From: Natrinema amylolyticum
Lineage (GTDB): Archaea; Halobacteriota; Halobacteria; Halobacteriales; Natrialbaceae
Length of the DNA: 64,000 nucleotides
Reading direction: 5' to 3'
Assembly (NCBI RefSeq): GCF_020515625.1
Contig: NZ_JAIWPJ010000002.1
Coordinates: 310,001 to 374,000 of the forward strand
Part shown: positions 19,638 through 35,258 of the stretch, one piece after another
How the letters are laid out: each line of letters opens with the position of its first letter
How positions within the stretch are numbered: position 1 is the stretch's first letter
Notes under the pieces: generated by a model
What the model was told of the DNA's origin: nothing
The model's input: only the letters and a program-made list of their open reading frames with translations
Databases searched by the model: none
Made by a program: the position numbers and the translations under genes

Positions 19638-21287
19638 TTACGCCGCGACGGTCGTTCGGTCCGTGACGGTGGTTCCGGTTTCGTCGGTAACCGCGAGGGT
19701 CACGCCGTAGTCGTCGCCGGCACCGTGTTTCACCGTCTCGGCGAGCGATCCGCCGGCGGTCTCGCCCTCGACGGACGCCTCGTCGGTGACGACGACTCGG
19801 TCGTTCCCATCTCGGATCGTTACCGTGACTGACGAGAGATCACCGTCCACATCGCTGACGCGCCAGTCGGCGGCGAGTTCGGCGTGCGGGTTCGGCGGGC
19901 TGTCGTCGCTCCCCGAGAGCGCGTCGACGGTCGGCTCGTGGGTCGCGATGTCGGTGGTCAGCGTCGCCGTCGCTCCCGATTCGGTGACGCTATCGGCGCG
20001 GACGACGGCGCGGTACTCGTACTCGGTTCCGGACTCGAGTCCCGTAAGCGAGGTCTCGACTGCCCCGGGAGCGGTCAGCGTCTCATCGTCGGTCTCGTGC
20101 CACGTATTCGCGCCCGGCTCGCGGTACTGGATGGCGACGGTCGCCGCGTCGGCACCGCCGAGATCGATCAGTTCGCCGGAGACCGTCGCCGACTCGTCGT
20201 CGCTGACTGCGCCCCCGGTCTCGACGTCGGGATCGATGACCGTCTCGAACGTCTCGACCGCGCCGACGGCCGAATCGCCGTCGGCCGCCTCGCCGACAAC
20301 GCGGAACTCGTAGCTCGTTCCGGGCTCGAGGTCGCGAACGGTCGTACTGACCTGCCCCGCGGAGCCGGATTCGACCGCCTCGGTCGTCGTCCACTCGGAA
20401 GCCCCAAGCCGTCGGTACTCGAACCGGGCGGTCGCCGCGGTCGCGTCGCCGAAGTCCGCGATATCGCCGGACAGGGTCGCGTTCGTTGCCGTCACGCCCG
20501 TCGCTGACCCGGTCTCGACGGCGAAGCGAGTCTCCGTCGCGAACTGCTCGTACCCCGTGGACAGCCCGTGTTCCCGTTCGGTGCGGATGTGCGACGTGAA
20601 CTCGTACTCGGTTCCGGGCTCGAGACCGGTCACCTGCTGGGTCGCCACGCCGGTCGAATTGACCGTCCGGGTCGGCGTCTCGGTCCACTCCGAGTTCGGC
20701 TCGTACTCGTCGGTCGGGCTATACGAGAACCACACCTCGGCCGACGACTCGCCGCCGAGATCGGTCACGTTCGCGCCGAGCGTCGCCTCGGTTTCACCGA
20801 CGGCCGTCGCGCCCGTCGTCGTCGCTTCCGGTCGATCGGCCGGTGTCTCGATCGTTCGGATCTCGCCGCGGTCGACGCCGACCGTCGTCTCCGCAACGGC
20901 ACGATACTCGTAGACCGTCCCGGGCTCGAGACCGGTCAAATCGTCCCTGAACGCGCCCGTCTCGGCCCTCGGTTCGGCCGCCGCGGTCGACCACGCGTCG
21001 CTCGAGCCGTTCTCGCGGTACTCGAACCGGACGGTCGCGTTCTCCGCGTCGCCGAGATCGGTGAGGTTCCCAGCGACGATGACAGCGGAGTCGTTGAGCA
21101 CGTCGGCCCAGGTGGTGTCGACCGACGGCGATTCCTCGGTCGTCACATCGGTCGTCGTTGAACCGGTCGCTATTACAGTCGTCGCAGCCCCTGTCGCGGG
21201 CGCGAACGCAACGCCCAGTACGAGAATGGCGACGAGACACGTCCACAATCCTCCTCGAAACTCATCTGAATGAATACTGGTTCGCAT
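19638..21287 (-). CDS. Secreted protein with four fibronectin-III-like repeats
   Basis: 549 residues from ATG 21287 (MRTSIHSDEFRGGLWTCLVAILVLGVAFAPATGA), a Sec-type signal. The mature part contains four repeats of about 90 residues, each with a TLGxxVTDLGG-like start, an ARFEYRxxGxxxWT strand and a xLEPGTxYEFRxV strand near its end, the haloarchaeal fibronectin-type layout. The fifth C-terminal domain (DWRVSDVDGDLSSVTVTIRDGNDRVVVTDEASVEG) is a different Ig-like domain. No C-terminal anchor is seen. It lies just downstream of the cohesin-like PGF-CTERM gene with a separate A/T-rich promoter region. Confidence 0.82.
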   Translation of the reverse strand: MRTSIHSDEFRGGLWTCLVAILVLGVAFAPATGAATTVIATGSTTTDVTTEESPSVDTTWADVLNDSAVIVAGNLTDLGDAENATVRFEYRENGSSDAWSTAAAEPRAETGAFRDDLTGLEPGTVYEYRAVAETTVGVDRGEIRTIETPADRPEATTTGATAVGETEATLGANVTDLGGESSAEVWFSYSPTDEYEPNSEWTETPTRTVNSTGVATQQVTGLEPGTEYEFTSHIRTEREHGLSTGYEQFATETRFAVETGSATGVTATNATLSGDIADFGDATAATARFEYRRLGASEWTTTEAVESGSAGQVSTTVRDLEPGTSYEFRVVGEAADGDSAVGAVETFETVIDPDVETGGAVSDDESATVSGELIDLGGADAATVAIQYREPGANTWHETDDETLTAPGAVETSLTGLESGTEYEYRAVVRADSVTESGATATLTTDIATHEPTVDALSGSDDSPPNPHAELAADWRVSDVDGDLSSVTVTIRDGNDRVVVTDEASVEGETAGGSLAETVKHGAGDDYGVTLAVTDETGTTVTDRTTVAA

Positions 21288-21396
21288 GTGTATTTTCGTT
21301 CGAAATAACGTATTAATAACTTTTCTATGAACTGAGAGGAGAGCGAGTGAGACGGCAGCAGGGCGGGAGGCGCGTCGAAAAGAATGAGCAGACGGG

Positions 21397-22152
21397 TTAC
21401 CGGGACCGCGCGAGCAGGGCCGCCGCGAGAGCGGCGATCGCGACGAGTGCGGCTCCGCCCGCGAAGCCGGGGACCGAGTCCGAACTCGAACTCCGATTCG
21501 AGTCATCGGAGTCCATCCCGTCACTGGAGTCCGTCCCGTCACCGGAATCAGTGCCGCCGTCACCGTCGCCGTCCGCGGTTTGTGCCGAGGAGACGGCCGT
21601 CCCGTCGTCGACGGTGAGCGTCCCCGCCTCGAGCACCGGCTCAATGCGGGAGCCGCCGTCCGCGTCGGCCTGGACGTCCGTTATCTCGAGCGTCGTCGAA
21701 CCGGTGTCGGGCCCGGTAACCGCGACCGTCGCGAGCGTGACGTCGGTCGCGCCGGGCGCCACCTCGTCGGTGAGATCGGCGGCCTCGACGGTCACCGACT
21801 GCCCGTCGTCGCTCACGATCGGGTCAGACGTCTTCCCGTACGTGTCGGGATAGCTGGCGTTCGAGACCGTCGCGGCCTCGGTCGACAGCTCGAGGGTGAT
21901 CTTGAAGCCGGCGAGGCCGTCCGGGGCGTCGGTGAGCGCGATCCGATGGGTCGCGGTCCCTCCGGGCTCGACGGTCGCGTCGGCGACGACGAGACTGCTC
22001 TCGGTCGTCGAGCCGTTCGCCTCGGTCGCGCCGATTCCGGGGGTCGAGCCGCCGCTCGCGGCCGTGACCGCGACCGGAAGCCCGACCGTCAGTCCGACCG
22101 CGAGGGCGACGACGAGCGCGCCGATTCGACGCCGCGGCGATGTCTCGCTCAC
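21397..22152 (-). CDS. Cohesin-like surface protein with PGF-CTERM anchor
   Basis: 251 residues starting at GTG 22152, whose first bases overlap the TGA of the upstream PhoX-like gene (GTGA). The layout is: signal peptide (IGALVVALAVGLTVGLPVAVTA), a cohesin-like beta domain of about 130 residues with VEPGGTATHRIALTDAPDGLAGFKITLEL, SDDGQSVTVEAADLTDEVAPGATDVTLATVAVTG, a Ser/Gly/Asp-rich spacer, then PGFAGGAALVAIAALAAALLARSR, the PGF-CTERM signal processed by archaeosortase A for lipid attachment. Its cohesin-like domain clearly resembles residues 684-815 of the PhoX protein. The coupling implies a joint function. Confidence 0.85.
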   Translation of the reverse strand: MSETSPRRRIGALVVALAVGLTVGLPVAVTAASGGSTPGIGATEANGSTTESSLVVADATVEPGGTATHRIALTDAPDGLAGFKITLELSTEAATVSNASYPDTYGKTSDPIVSDDGQSVTVEAADLTDEVAPGATDVTLATVAVTGPDTGSTTLEITDVQADADGGSRIEPVLEAGTLTVDDGTAVSSAQTADGDGDGGTDSGDGTDSSDGMDSDDSNRSSSSDSVPGFAGGAALVAIAALAAALLARSR

Positions 22153-24836
22153 AGCTCGTCGTACAGTTCGTCGATGTCGTCGTAGTCGATGCGGCCGTTG
22201 TCGTTGAAGTCGTAGGCGTCGACGTTGAGACGGACCGAGTCGTCCTCGATGTGCTCGAAGAGGAGGGTCACGTCGTCGTAGTCCAGCCGTCCGTTCCCGT
22301 TGACGTCCTCGAACGTTCCGTCGCCGTCGGGGTCGGTCGGAGCCCGTCCGCCCGAGCCGCCGGAGCCGCCGCCGACCGGCGGCGGCCCAGTAACGACCAC
22401 GCCGGGCCGTGGCTGGGCGTCGATCACAGCCCCATCGTCGTCGTCCAGGGACTGCACGTCGGCCGTGATATCGGTCGTCCCGCCACCGACGCCCTCGATC
22501 TCGACGGTCGCCAGCGTGACGTCCGTCGCGCCGGATTCGATCTCGTCTTCGATGTCGGCGAACCGGAACTCGACCGTCGAGCCGTCGTCGCTGATCGTCG
22601 GCCCGGCGGTGAGTTCGAGCGCGTCGTGATAGCTCGCGCCGGCGATTTCGGCGACGTCGGTGTGCTCGAGGGAGACGGTGACGCGGCCGCCGGCGAGGCC
22701 GTTCGGGATCGACGAGAGCGTCAGATCGGCTTCGCCGGTCGTCTCCTGGCTGATCGCGACGGAGTCGATCTCCAGCGTCGCCGGCGGCTCGTAGACCCAC
22801 ATCGCGTCGTTGGGGTACGAGCGGCCGAAGCTTCCCTTGTCCTCACAGAGGAGGACGCGGCCGTCGTCGAGCACCATGACGTTGTCGACGTTGATCAGCG
22901 ACGCGTCCTGAAGCGACTCGGGAGCGCTGCCGTTCGGTCCGACGACGACCGGCTCGAGTCGGGAGACGTCGTACCCCGCCTCGAGCTCGGCCCGATAGAG
23001 GACCCCAGTCTCGACCTCGTCGAACCGGAGGTCGCCCCGTTCGTCGGTCATGTAGCCGCCGAGCGAGGAGATACCGAAGTAGATGAAGTCGCCGGGCTCG
23101 GCCTCGTCGTGAGCGTCGATCCCCTCGGCCTTGTTGAACTCGATACTGGCACCGATCTCCTTGGCGGCCGCGCGGGTCTCGAGGAAGGGGACGCGGCGCA
23201 GGTCCTCGTCGACGCCGTCGGGGCCGCGTTCCTCGTACTGTTCGGCCCACTCGACGATCTCCTCGTCGGTGATGAAGTCCTGATTGCCGTTGATGGCGAC
23301 CTCCTCGTCGGCTTCGGCGAGAGCGGTCTCGAGGTCGTCTTCCCAGTCGGTCTCGGCGTGAGTCTCGAGGTAGTCGACCTGCGTGACGTCGTCGTAGTCG
23401 GCGATCCAGGACTCGACCTCGCCGTTGCTGGCGGTACCCAGTTCGAGCCACTCGATCTCGAGGTCCGTCTCGGCGACCGGCCCCTCGCCGATCTCTGCCG
23501 CCTTCATGGCGTACAGCGTACCGCGGACGTCCATCCGGTCGTCGTGCTCCGGAATGGGCTCGTCTGCGACGAACTTGTAGATACCCTTCGCACCGCCGTC
23601 GGAGGCGAGATAGACGGTGCGTTCGTCGGGCAGGACTTCGGGACACTCCCACGCGGCGCGGCCGAAGACGTGGTGTTTGACCGGGATCGGCTCCTCGGCG
23701 GTCGGCTCGGTGATCTCGACGATGTGCCCGTAGCGGTAGCGATTCGGGAACGCCTCGTCCCCGATGGGTCGGGGCGTGTTCACGGTCTTGGTGCCGTCCC
23801 CGTCCCTGTCCTCGTCCTCGTTATCGATCTCGGCCTCGGTCTGATCGATCGGCTCGACGCCGAGGTGATAGGCCATCTTCTCGGTACCCCGGCTGTTGTT
23901 CAGCCCCATCGGATACGCGTGCTCGTCGCCGAAGATCTCTCCGAGCGAGCCGTGGACTTCTAGAATGTTGGGGCGGTTCCAGAACTCGTTGCCGCCGCGA
24001 AGGCCGACGCCGCTGCCCTGTTCGACGATATCACTGACCGTCGCGAGCCCGTTGACGCGCGGGTGACCGTACTCCTCTTCGGCCGACAGCGGCGTCCCCC
24101 ACGGGCTGAGGTCGCCGTAACAGTTGACCCTCGTCCCGCCGATCTCGCGGAACGCCTCGGTGTTCTCGAGTTCCATCGCGTTCTCGAGGTCGGCCTGCCA
24201 GTAGCCGTCCTCGTCGCGGTAGAGCGGTGTTCGCGAGATCGCGCCGGGTCGCGTCTCGTTGTTAGTAAAGAGGTAGCCCTCCGTGCCCTCGTCGTTCGTC
24301 GCGACGAAGAAGTTCATGTCGGCCTGTTCGCCGACCCCCTCGTAGGTCTCCTCGGCGATTTCTTCGAGGTCCGTGCCGTCCGGCGTCTGCGGGTGACCGA
24401 ACCGTTCGTCTCCGCCGTTGATCTCCTCGCCGGTCTGGACGAGGAGTCGGTACTGGCCGGCCGCCGAGAGGACCTGGCGCTCCTCTCGGTCGGTTCGCGG
24501 CGCCTCGAGCTCCTTGAACTCGTCGTTCTTCCCGTTGAAGGTGAACTGGAAATCGTCGAAGACGCCGACCCCGCCCGTGTCGAAGGGAGCGATGTTCTCC
24601 GGGCTGGGTCCCTGCAGACTGTAGAGGAGCTCTCCCGTCTCGAAGACGAACGGTCCCGTTACTTCGGCTCCCTTCGCAGTCGTCGAAAACCGATCGATGT
24701 TCCCCTCGACGTACGGCGCTGCCAGCGTTTCGTGTTCGTCCCTTCCGTCCTGCGCACCGACGACGCCGACCGCCCCGGTGCTGATCGCTGCCGCGACCGA
24801 TGATGCCATCAAGTTCCGTCTGGTGAATTCGACCAT
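22149..24836 (-). CDS. PhoX-family (DUF839) exported enzyme with cohesin-like and dockerin modules
   Basis: 895 residues from ATG 24836. The Tat signal is EFTRRNLMASSVAAAISTGAVGVVGAQ. Residues about 40-680 are a DUF839/PhoX-like region: FLFTNNETRPGAISRTPLYRD, CYGDLSPWGTPLSAEEEYGHPRVNG, EWLELGTASNGE, FGISSLGGYMTDERGDLRFDE, LINVDNVMVLDDGRVLLCEDKG. PhoX enzymes are Ca2+/Fe-dependent phosphatases, so activity on phosphoesters is plausible. After it come a cohesin-like domain (about 684-815), a Gly/Pro-rich linker and a dockerin-like pair of Ca2+ loops, DVNGNGRLDYDD and DFNDNGRIDYDD. The enzyme is therefore probably displayed by interaction with a cohesin-like partner. Confidence 0.85.
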   Translation of the reverse strand: MVEFTRRNLMASSVAAAISTGAVGVVGAQDGRDEHETLAAPYVEGNIDRFSTTAKGAEVTGPFVFETGELLYSLQGPSPENIAPFDTGGVGVFDDFQFTFNGKNDEFKELEAPRTDREERQVLSAAGQYRLLVQTGEEINGGDERFGHPQTPDGTDLEEIAEETYEGVGEQADMNFFVATNDEGTEGYLFTNNETRPGAISRTPLYRDEDGYWQADLENAMELENTEAFREIGGTRVNCYGDLSPWGTPLSAEEEYGHPRVNGLATVSDIVEQGSGVGLRGGNEFWNRPNILEVHGSLGEIFGDEHAYPMGLNNSRGTEKMAYHLGVEPIDQTEAEIDNEDEDRDGDGTKTVNTPRPIGDEAFPNRYRYGHIVEITEPTAEEPIPVKHHVFGRAAWECPEVLPDERTVYLASDGGAKGIYKFVADEPIPEHDDRMDVRGTLYAMKAAEIGEGPVAETDLEIEWLELGTASNGEVESWIADYDDVTQVDYLETHAETDWEDDLETALAEADEEVAINGNQDFITDEEIVEWAEQYEERGPDGVDEDLRRVPFLETRAAAKEIGASIEFNKAEGIDAHDEAEPGDFIYFGISSLGGYMTDERGDLRFDEVETGVLYRAELEAGYDVSRLEPVVVGPNGSAPESLQDASLINVDNVMVLDDGRVLLCEDKGSFGRSYPNDAMWVYEPPATLEIDSVAISQETTGEADLTLSSIPNGLAGGRVTVSLEHTDVAEIAGASYHDALELTAGPTISDDGSTVEFRFADIEDEIESGATDVTLATVEIEGVGGGTTDITADVQSLDDDDGAVIDAQPRPGVVVTGPPPVGGGSGGSGGRAPTDPDGDGTFEDVNGNGRLDYDDVTLLFEHIEDDSVRLNVDAYDFNDNGRIDYDDIDELYDEL

Positions 24837-34442: not shown

Positions 34443-35258
34443 ATGGACGCAAGTGATGATGGATCCCGCTCGCTCGACGAGGCGGTAGCCGCCGGTCTCC
34501 GCCTCGTCAGCGGCACTGGTCTCGCCGTCCTGCTCGCTCTCACCCTCTCGATCGCGCCCATCGCGGGGACGGCCGCCGCGATCGATCAGGTCGCGATCGT
34601 CTCGCCCGATCGATCACAGGTCGAGGCCGCGCCCGGCGAGACGGTCGAAATCGACGTGACCCTCCGGAGTCAGGGCGGTCACGGCGGGGAGGGTATCGAC
34701 GCGGTGACGCTGATCGCCCGGTACCACCCCGAGTACCTCGAGATCGAGGGCATCGACCGGGGCCCGTGGCTCGAGGGGGGCGACACCGAGATTCAGACGA
34801 CGGAGACACTCGCCCACGAGCGGGGGACGGCGATCATCGAGCAGCGCCGCGAGCCGGCCGCCGGCGGTGCGACCGGCGTGGGGACGATCGCGACGCTGAC
34901 CGTCCGGGTCGCCGAGGACGCGCCGGCCGGTGCGACGACGATTTCGTTCGACGAGAGCGACGTCAACACCACCGGAGACTGGCCGGTCGCCGTCGTCGAC
35001 GAGTCCGCGACGGTCGCGATCGACGGCGGCACCGAGTCGCTCGACCCGCTCGAGTCGTTCGACCATCCCGATCCCAACAAACTGGCGCGGGACTCGGACG
35101 GCGAGAACGGGGGAAACGGCTCGAGCGATGCCGAGAACGAATCGGCGGCGACCGACGACAGTGAGCCGGTTCCGGGGTTCACGGCTGAGATCGGGCTCGC
35201 GGCCGTTACGATGGGATTACTGCTTTTCGCAGTCGCTCGTGACCGTCGCCGGGGATAA
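34443..35258 (+). CDS. Cohesin-like surface protein with PGF-CTERM anchor (second)
   Basis: 271 residues. A signal peptide (GTGLAVLLALTLSIAPIAGTAAA) is followed by a cohesin-like beta domain: QVAIVSPDRSQVEAAPGETVEIDVTLRS, YHPEYLEIEGIDRGPWLEGGDTEIQTTETLAHERGTAIIEQRRE, ATLTVRVAEDAPAGATTISFDESDVNTTGDW. It ends with a Ser/Asn/Glu-rich spacer and VPGFTAEIGLAAVTMGLLLFAVARDRRRG, a PGF-CTERM signal. It could present a docking face on the cell surface, like the cohesin-like protein at 21397. It is unrelated to its HTH and herA neighbours in function. Confidence 0.82.
   Translation: MDASDDGSRSLDEAVAAGLRLVSGTGLAVLLALTLSIAPIAGTAAAIDQVAIVSPDRSQVEAAPGETVEIDVTLRSQGGHGGEGIDAVTLIARYHPEYLEIEGIDRGPWLEGGDTEIQTTETLAHERGTAIIEQRREPAAGGATGVGTIATLTVRVAEDAPAGATTISFDESDVNTTGDWPVAVVDESATVAIDGGTESLDPLESFDHPDPNKLARDSDGENGGNGSSDAENESAATDDSEPVPGFTAEIGLAAVTMGLLLFAVARDRRRG

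Follow-up and report, generated by a model that had tools for sequence, protein, structure and literature searches.

A PhoX-type enzyme with a cohesin–dockerin tail and its cohesin-bearing neighbour as a putative surface-display unit of haloarchaea

Described cohesin–dockerin systems and the Natrinema locus

Adjacent genes for a cohesin–dockerin protein and a cohesin protein are already known from Archaeoglobus fulgidus, in which ORF2375 (cohesin plus dockerin) lies next to ORF2376 (cohesin) and strong, specific binding has been reported between Doc2375 and Coh2376 (PMC9705933; see also PMC9012536). This pair is the nearest known system to the locus described here, which it resembles in gene adjacency, in the C-terminal position of the dockerin and in predicted fold, as both cohesins of our unit model as cohesins with the A. 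fulgidus structure 2xdh among the top matches. The two systems differ in that the first protein here is a PhoX-type enzyme and the second bears a PGF-CTERM anchor, and in that our unit is spread class-wide and its tail is common to several enzymes. With bacterial cellulosomes that use an anchoring scaffoldin, the unit shares the principle of an enzyme-borne dockerin and a surface-anchored cohesin, whereas the PhoX anchor has only one cohesin and the enzyme itself carries another. For ANME and other non-cellulolytic archaea, dockerin and cohesin proteins are thought to fix proteins to the outer cell layer; the relevant section of PMC9012536 names mainly ABC-transporter binding proteins and S-layer proteins as dockerin-bearing cargo and describes no coupled phosphatase/anchor unit. 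A 2026 paper on Haloferax polyphosphate likewise contained nothing on such a unit.

The window, that is, the whole stretch of 64,000 nucleotides that was analysed, corresponds to positions 310001–374000 of contig 2 in the 4.7-Mb genome of the haloarchaeon Natrinema amylolyticum. The interval of interest is filled by three minus-strand genes at 24836–22149 (gene 1, 895 aa), 22152–21397 (gene 2, 251 aa) and 21287–19638 (549 aa), and open reading frames and translations confirmed all three at the coordinates and on the strand given in a previous sequence-only reading. Genes 1 and 2 overlap by 4 nt (22149–22152), the GTG start of gene 2 lying over the TGA stop of gene 1, which bears out the coupling of the PhoX and anchor genes that the reading had claimed. 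The third gene (19638–21287, minus strand) encodes a secreted protein with FN3-type repeats and is separated from the pair by a 109-nt gap with an A+T-rich 3′ part. Because this gene adjoins the pair in only three species (the window and loci L011 and L013, all Natrinema-type genomes), we regard it as a neighbour and not as a component, and the suggestion that the FN3 protein is a third member of the assembly was not upheld. Its repeats also match the phosphatase N-terminal domains PhoD_N and Pur_ac_phosph_N.

The same reading had called the locus cellulosome-like and judged a coupled enzyme/anchor unit not to be a standard system. The first description is only partly apt, since the principle of an enzyme dockerin and an anchored cohesin holds but the locus contains no multi-cohesin scaffoldin (anchor and enzyme have one cohesin each); Pfam scans of the PhoX locus also found neither a glycoside hydrolase nor any dockerin-bearing plant-polysaccharide hydrolase. 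Lacking both scaffoldin and glycoside hydrolase, the PhoX/anchor locus does not encode a cellulosome. The second description was overstated in view of the A. fulgidus pair, and the unit is a variant of known noncellulosomal cohesin–dockerin pairs. What is new, within the literature searched, is the predicted phosphatase cargo, the PGF-CTERM anchor, the class-wide spread, the shared tail and the paired absences of tail and anchor described below.

Domains of the enzyme and the anchor

The product of gene 1 (22149..24836, minus strand) has the architecture PhoX–cohesin–dockerin, as delineated from its open reading frame, the Pfam family PF05787 and a 22-row alignment. Its N-terminus carries a Tat-type signal (MVEFTRRNLMASS..., residues 1–28, 24753..24836, minus strand), typed by its motif, in which the twin arginines R6 and R7 are invariant across the 22 aligned orthologues. 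The PhoX-type enzyme domain follows at about residues 40–681 (22794..24719, minus strand) and scores 82.5 bits against PF05787 (E 4.8e-23; Pfam cut-off 24). Like the PhoX alkaline phosphatase family (PF05787; solved structure 3zwu), the protein combines this enzyme domain and a Tat-type signal with an NC..(S/T)PWGT..EE motif, but it is remote from the solved PhoX and has an added cohesin–dockerin tail. The profile match to 3zwu (E 2e-11) covers the motif; mapping of the Fe/Ca active-site ligands extended to its Cys and Glu, which align with those of 3zwu and are invariant in the orthologues. The earlier assignment of a Tat-type PhoX-like enzyme was thus supported by PF05787 and by the invariant twin arginine, and the protein is probably exported by Tat and probably a phosphatase.

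Pfam and PDB sequence profiles gave no cohesin match in the product of either gene, and the identity of the cohesin-like domains therefore needed a structural test. In the anchor, the domain at residues 50–185 (21598..22005, minus strand) was modelled mostly at pLDDT > 90; Foldseek returned cohesins from rank 1 onward (3ul4, E 4.5e-9; A. fulgidus 2xdh, E 8e-9), and structural realignment gave Z up to 16.1 at 2.1 Å over 131 residues. The full-length model of the PhoX protein was poor (mean pLDDT 50), although residues 684–819 (22380..22787, minus strand) were good enough for cohesin matching and reached Z up to 15.7 against solved cohesins. Overall, the two models matched solved cohesins with Z of about 15–16 and rmsd of 2.1–2.5 Å over about 130 residues, so that structure prediction assigns the cohesin jelly-roll fold to both domains, in line with what had been proposed for both proteins.

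The predicted dockerin occupies residues 835–895 (22152..22334, minus strand) and was assigned from a near-threshold Dockerin_1 match and from its two Ca-loops, DVNGNGRLDYDD (residues 844–855, 22272..22307, minus strand) and DFNDNGRIDYDD (residues 876–887, 22176..22211, minus strand), both of which were present as previously read. Nearly every copy has DYD or something close to it at positions 9–11 of the first loop, and DYD is conserved in the second. Against a Pfam cut-off of 22.9 bits, the window copy fell slightly short, with Dockerin_1 scores of 17.4 and, when the genome was searched, 22.7; the dockerin of an orthologue (L129) passed it at 26.9 bits, as did those of a GH5 cluster in the same genome, which align with the PhoX dockerin. 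In the full-length PhoX model the dockerin segment was unreliable.

Gene 2 (21397..22152, minus strand, 251 aa) starts with GTG and encodes a cohesin followed by a PGF-CTERM sorting tail (PGFAGGAALVAIAALAAALLARSR, residues 228–251, 21400..21471, minus strand), which comprises the PGF motif, a hydrophobic stretch and a basic end and partially matches a PGF-CTERM-bearing model. Archaeosortase A is encoded in the same genome (TIGR04125, 313 bits). The anchor noted earlier on the second cohesin protein was accordingly recovered, and this motif together with the sortase suggests that the gene 2 product is held at the cell surface. The window encodes another secreted cohesin protein with a PGF-CTERM tail at 34443–35258 (plus strand), the only protein of the host genome that exceeds the Pfam cohesin cut-off.

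The cohesins of enzyme and anchor differ in charge at two positions that our own sequence alignment places on the docking face. Position 123 (anchor numbering) is Glu in all anchors and Arg or Lys in the enzyme in 33 of 41 pairs, and position 84 often opposes Glu to Arg. This opposition may mean that the two domains have different partners, in which case the dockerin may prefer one of them, or that the cohesins pair with each other. Under the latter arrangement, the enzyme cohesin would bind the anchor cohesin and so fix the enzyme, while the dockerin would bind enzyme cohesins to form chains or oligomers. Cohesin oligomers have been reported for A. fulgidus, and the Arg/Glu pattern recurs in other families (L125–L127). 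We nevertheless find direct pairing unlikely: the polarity is not kept in units built on a staphylococcal-nuclease (SNase) and GIFT-type protein, the docking-face placement comes from our alignment, and we know of no established mechanism for a specific cohesin–cohesin heterodimer. On account of the SNase/GIFT units, we also rejected the charge swap as a rule for all such pairs and retain it only for the rival reading of the PhoX unit.

Co-occurrence of the tail and the anchor

The conservation of the pair was examined in 125 genomes of the window's family. A tailed PhoX was present in 44, and in 43 of these the anchor gene lay directly downstream, the sole exception being G023 (L077), in which it is missing; among the 16 genomes that have only a tail-less PhoX, none had such an anchor. 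The association of tail and anchor gave a Fisher p of 1e-13, uncorrected for kinship. A tree of the catalytic domain shows five changes in the state of the tail, and the anchor followed the tail in all four independent contrasts on well-supported branches, which are too few for a p below 0.05. The clearest contrast is that of Natronococcus jeotgali and a relative (L014/L076 and L075), where PhoX occupies the same locus beside the same cystathionine-synthase-type gene and its catalytic part is 76–77% identical, with tail and anchor both absent. The two genes are mostly closely spaced: among 40 distinct anchors, 18 have a 4-nt overlap with the PhoX stop and a further 15 begin 3–4 nt past it, which places 33/40 starts within 4 nt. 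Several genomes have one anchor behind tandem PhoX copies (L006, L078, L079). Four loci looked like exceptions and on checking proved not to be: at L030, L032 and L037 the flank was too short, and L080 has a frameshift. Apparent frameshifts, due to sequencing error or decay, were seen in PhoX at L080, L086 and L090 and in the anchor gene at L079. The open frame of 1191 aa in G023 suggested that enzyme and anchor might be naturally fused there; this was dismissed, the extra length being upstream and the anchor missing. The sequence-only reading had staked its proposal in part on the two genes being kept side by side in related genomes, and they are; as the pairing is kept in many related species, phosphate-scavenging enzymes are probably fixed to the cell surface.

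We consider it reasonably probable that the pair constitutes a two-gene cohesin–dockerin surface-display unit for phosphorus scavenging. The PhoX-type enzyme would leave the cell via Tat, and archaeosortase A would fix the gene 2 cohesin to the surface through its PGF-CTERM tail; the C-terminal dockerin of the enzyme would then bind the anchored cohesin in a Ca-dependent manner and hold the enzyme at the surface, so that phosphate-releasing enzymes would be kept on the cell. The enzyme's own cohesin may in turn receive other dockerin-bearing enzymes, either additional PhoX or, where a relative encodes them, PhoD and 5′-nucleotidase; a single-cohesin anchor could in this way hold a short chain of enzymes. 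Each of the two A. fulgidus cohesins binds the single dockerin, a behaviour that would permit such chains. The display reading is favoured by the cohesin folds, by dockerin loops whose siblings exceed the Pfam cut-off and by the presence of the sortase; by the distribution of the anchor (43/44 versus 0/16), its paired absence with the tail and its closeness to the PhoX stop; and by the recurrence of the layout with Pfam-grade domains, together with the binding observed in the similarly arranged A. fulgidus pair (PMC9705933).

Some of our observations count against display. Pfam cohesins occur in 111/125 genomes of the host family, also where no dockerin was found, and lone cohesin-anchor proteins such as that at 34443–35258 of the window are present in most of its genomes. 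The tail also matches EF-hand profiles, and it could accordingly be an ordinary Ca-binding, Ig-like stabilising module that does no docking, the neighbouring cohesin protein having a separate structural role. The co-occurrence, coupling and paired absence of tail and anchor, as well as the occurrence of this layout on subtilases, where both cohesin and dockerin are Pfam-grade, make this very improbable in our estimation. Tailed enzymes also occur without such an anchor, namely in G023 and in G087, which has a tailed PhoD and no PhoX-type anchor. Cohesin and dockerin lying in one chain in these enzymes, the dockerin might fold back on its own cohesin as an internal clamp or stabiliser, leaving the anchor with another partner. 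Such a clamp would leave unexplained why the anchor stands beside nearly every tailed PhoX and is absent with tail-less PhoX, and we hold it to be quite unlikely.

Surface display, the reading that we prefer, may extend beyond PhoX, and the earlier reading understated this spread. A search with the tail alone found it in 121/391 genomes of the class, in 41/86 genera. By Pfam, its carriers include PhoX, PhoD, a 5′-nucleotidase, choice-of-anchor I proteins and the SNase/GIFT-type protein of about 1150 aa, so that several are phosphohydrolases or nuclease-like. A cohesin anchor of its own overlaps or adjoins the SNase/GIFT gene (L059, L120, L121); the tailed PhoD, 5′-nucleotidase and choice-of-anchor I genes stand alone without an adjoining anchor. 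Ten genomes with such stand-alone genes were compared, and in each the best match to the PhoX-type anchor lay beside PhoX; G228, G334 and G163 had one further, weaker candidate each. In G304, PhoX, PhoD, 5′-nucleotidase and choice-of-anchor I proteins all bear the tail and there is one such anchor, a gene content that would fit an anchor shared in trans. G202 and G240 also combine PhoX and PhoD with one anchor of this type. We tentatively raise the possibility, which we think has rather less than an even chance of being correct, that one interchangeable tail serves PhoX, PhoD, 5′-nucleotidase, choice-of-anchor I and nuclease-like proteins, that the PhoX-side anchor also serves the anchorless enzymes, and that enzymes chain without a scaffoldin, as a haloarchaeal phosphatase counterpart of the cellulosome for phosphorus scavenging.

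Related layouts with other cargo and biological meaning

The layout was also found with proteases and PKD proteins, a further respect in which its spread had been understated. At six loci (L101–L105 and L108), a gene encoding subtilase–cohesin–type I dockerin is followed by a cohesin anchor, with both cohesin and dockerin above the Pfam cut-offs in the copies scanned; relatives of these subtilases occur in 48/125 family genomes, not all of them with the tail. At L136, L139, L141 and L142, the gene for a PKD-domain protein ending in cohesin and dockerin precedes one for a cohesin protein whose C-terminus is a hydrophobic tail. With subtilases and PKD proteins showing it as well, the layout is a design used repeatedly rather than a chance feature of a single locus.

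Large multi-cohesin proteins were observed elsewhere in these genomes. In the Halovivax-type genome G032, subtilase genes ending in dockerin or cohesin–dockerin surround the gene for a PGF-CTERM protein of 2087 aa in which Pfam finds 14 cohesin stretches (L105, 5162–11425; also L109 and L110; genomes G032 and G030). By its domain content, this archaeal locus appears to be a protease counterpart of the cellulosome that includes a true scaffoldin with many cohesins. Halovivax sp. KZCA124 (G008; L092, 5180–11470) encodes a 2096-aa protein with 10 cohesin repeats and a GH5 domain, and G007 (L094, 5075–10381) a 1768-aa protein with 8 cohesin repeats; a cohesin PGF-CTERM anchor adjoins each, and many dockerin-bearing secreted proteins lie nearby. 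These two loci likely represent a haloarchaeal cellulosome. The host itself has, on contig 3 at about 70.8–82.6 kb (L057 4839–15945, L091 614–2635), a cluster of dockerin-bearing Tat-type proteins, of which 4/4 scanned were GH5 cellulase-type, grouped around a protein of 751 aa that combines two cohesin-like domains with FN3 and PKD. Loop positions 10–11 distinguish the dockerins of this GH5 cluster from that of PhoX.

In PMC9012536, archaea are described as having no large scaffoldins (citing Peer et al. 2009), and up to 5 cohesins are reported in ANME. The main text of a 2023 study of haloarchaeal cellulose metabolism mentions neither dockerin nor cohesin, and a 2024 paper notes dockerins on haloarchaeal mannanases and no cohesins. 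Our searches for an archaeal or haloarchaeal cellulosome, scaffoldin, cohesin or dockerin found no paper under such phrases, in literature whose coverage takes in few subscription journals.

Cohesins and dockerins of archaea with a non-cellulolytic way of life are able to bind, and the question is what this binding is used for. The PhoX/anchor pair is a small, widely conserved unit, and its definable cargo, explicit anchor and natural absences make this question directly testable. Such clip pairs could also provide salt-tolerant tools for protein engineering. For the haloarchaea themselves, the unit suggests that phosphate-releasing enzymes are held at the cell surface in a modular way.
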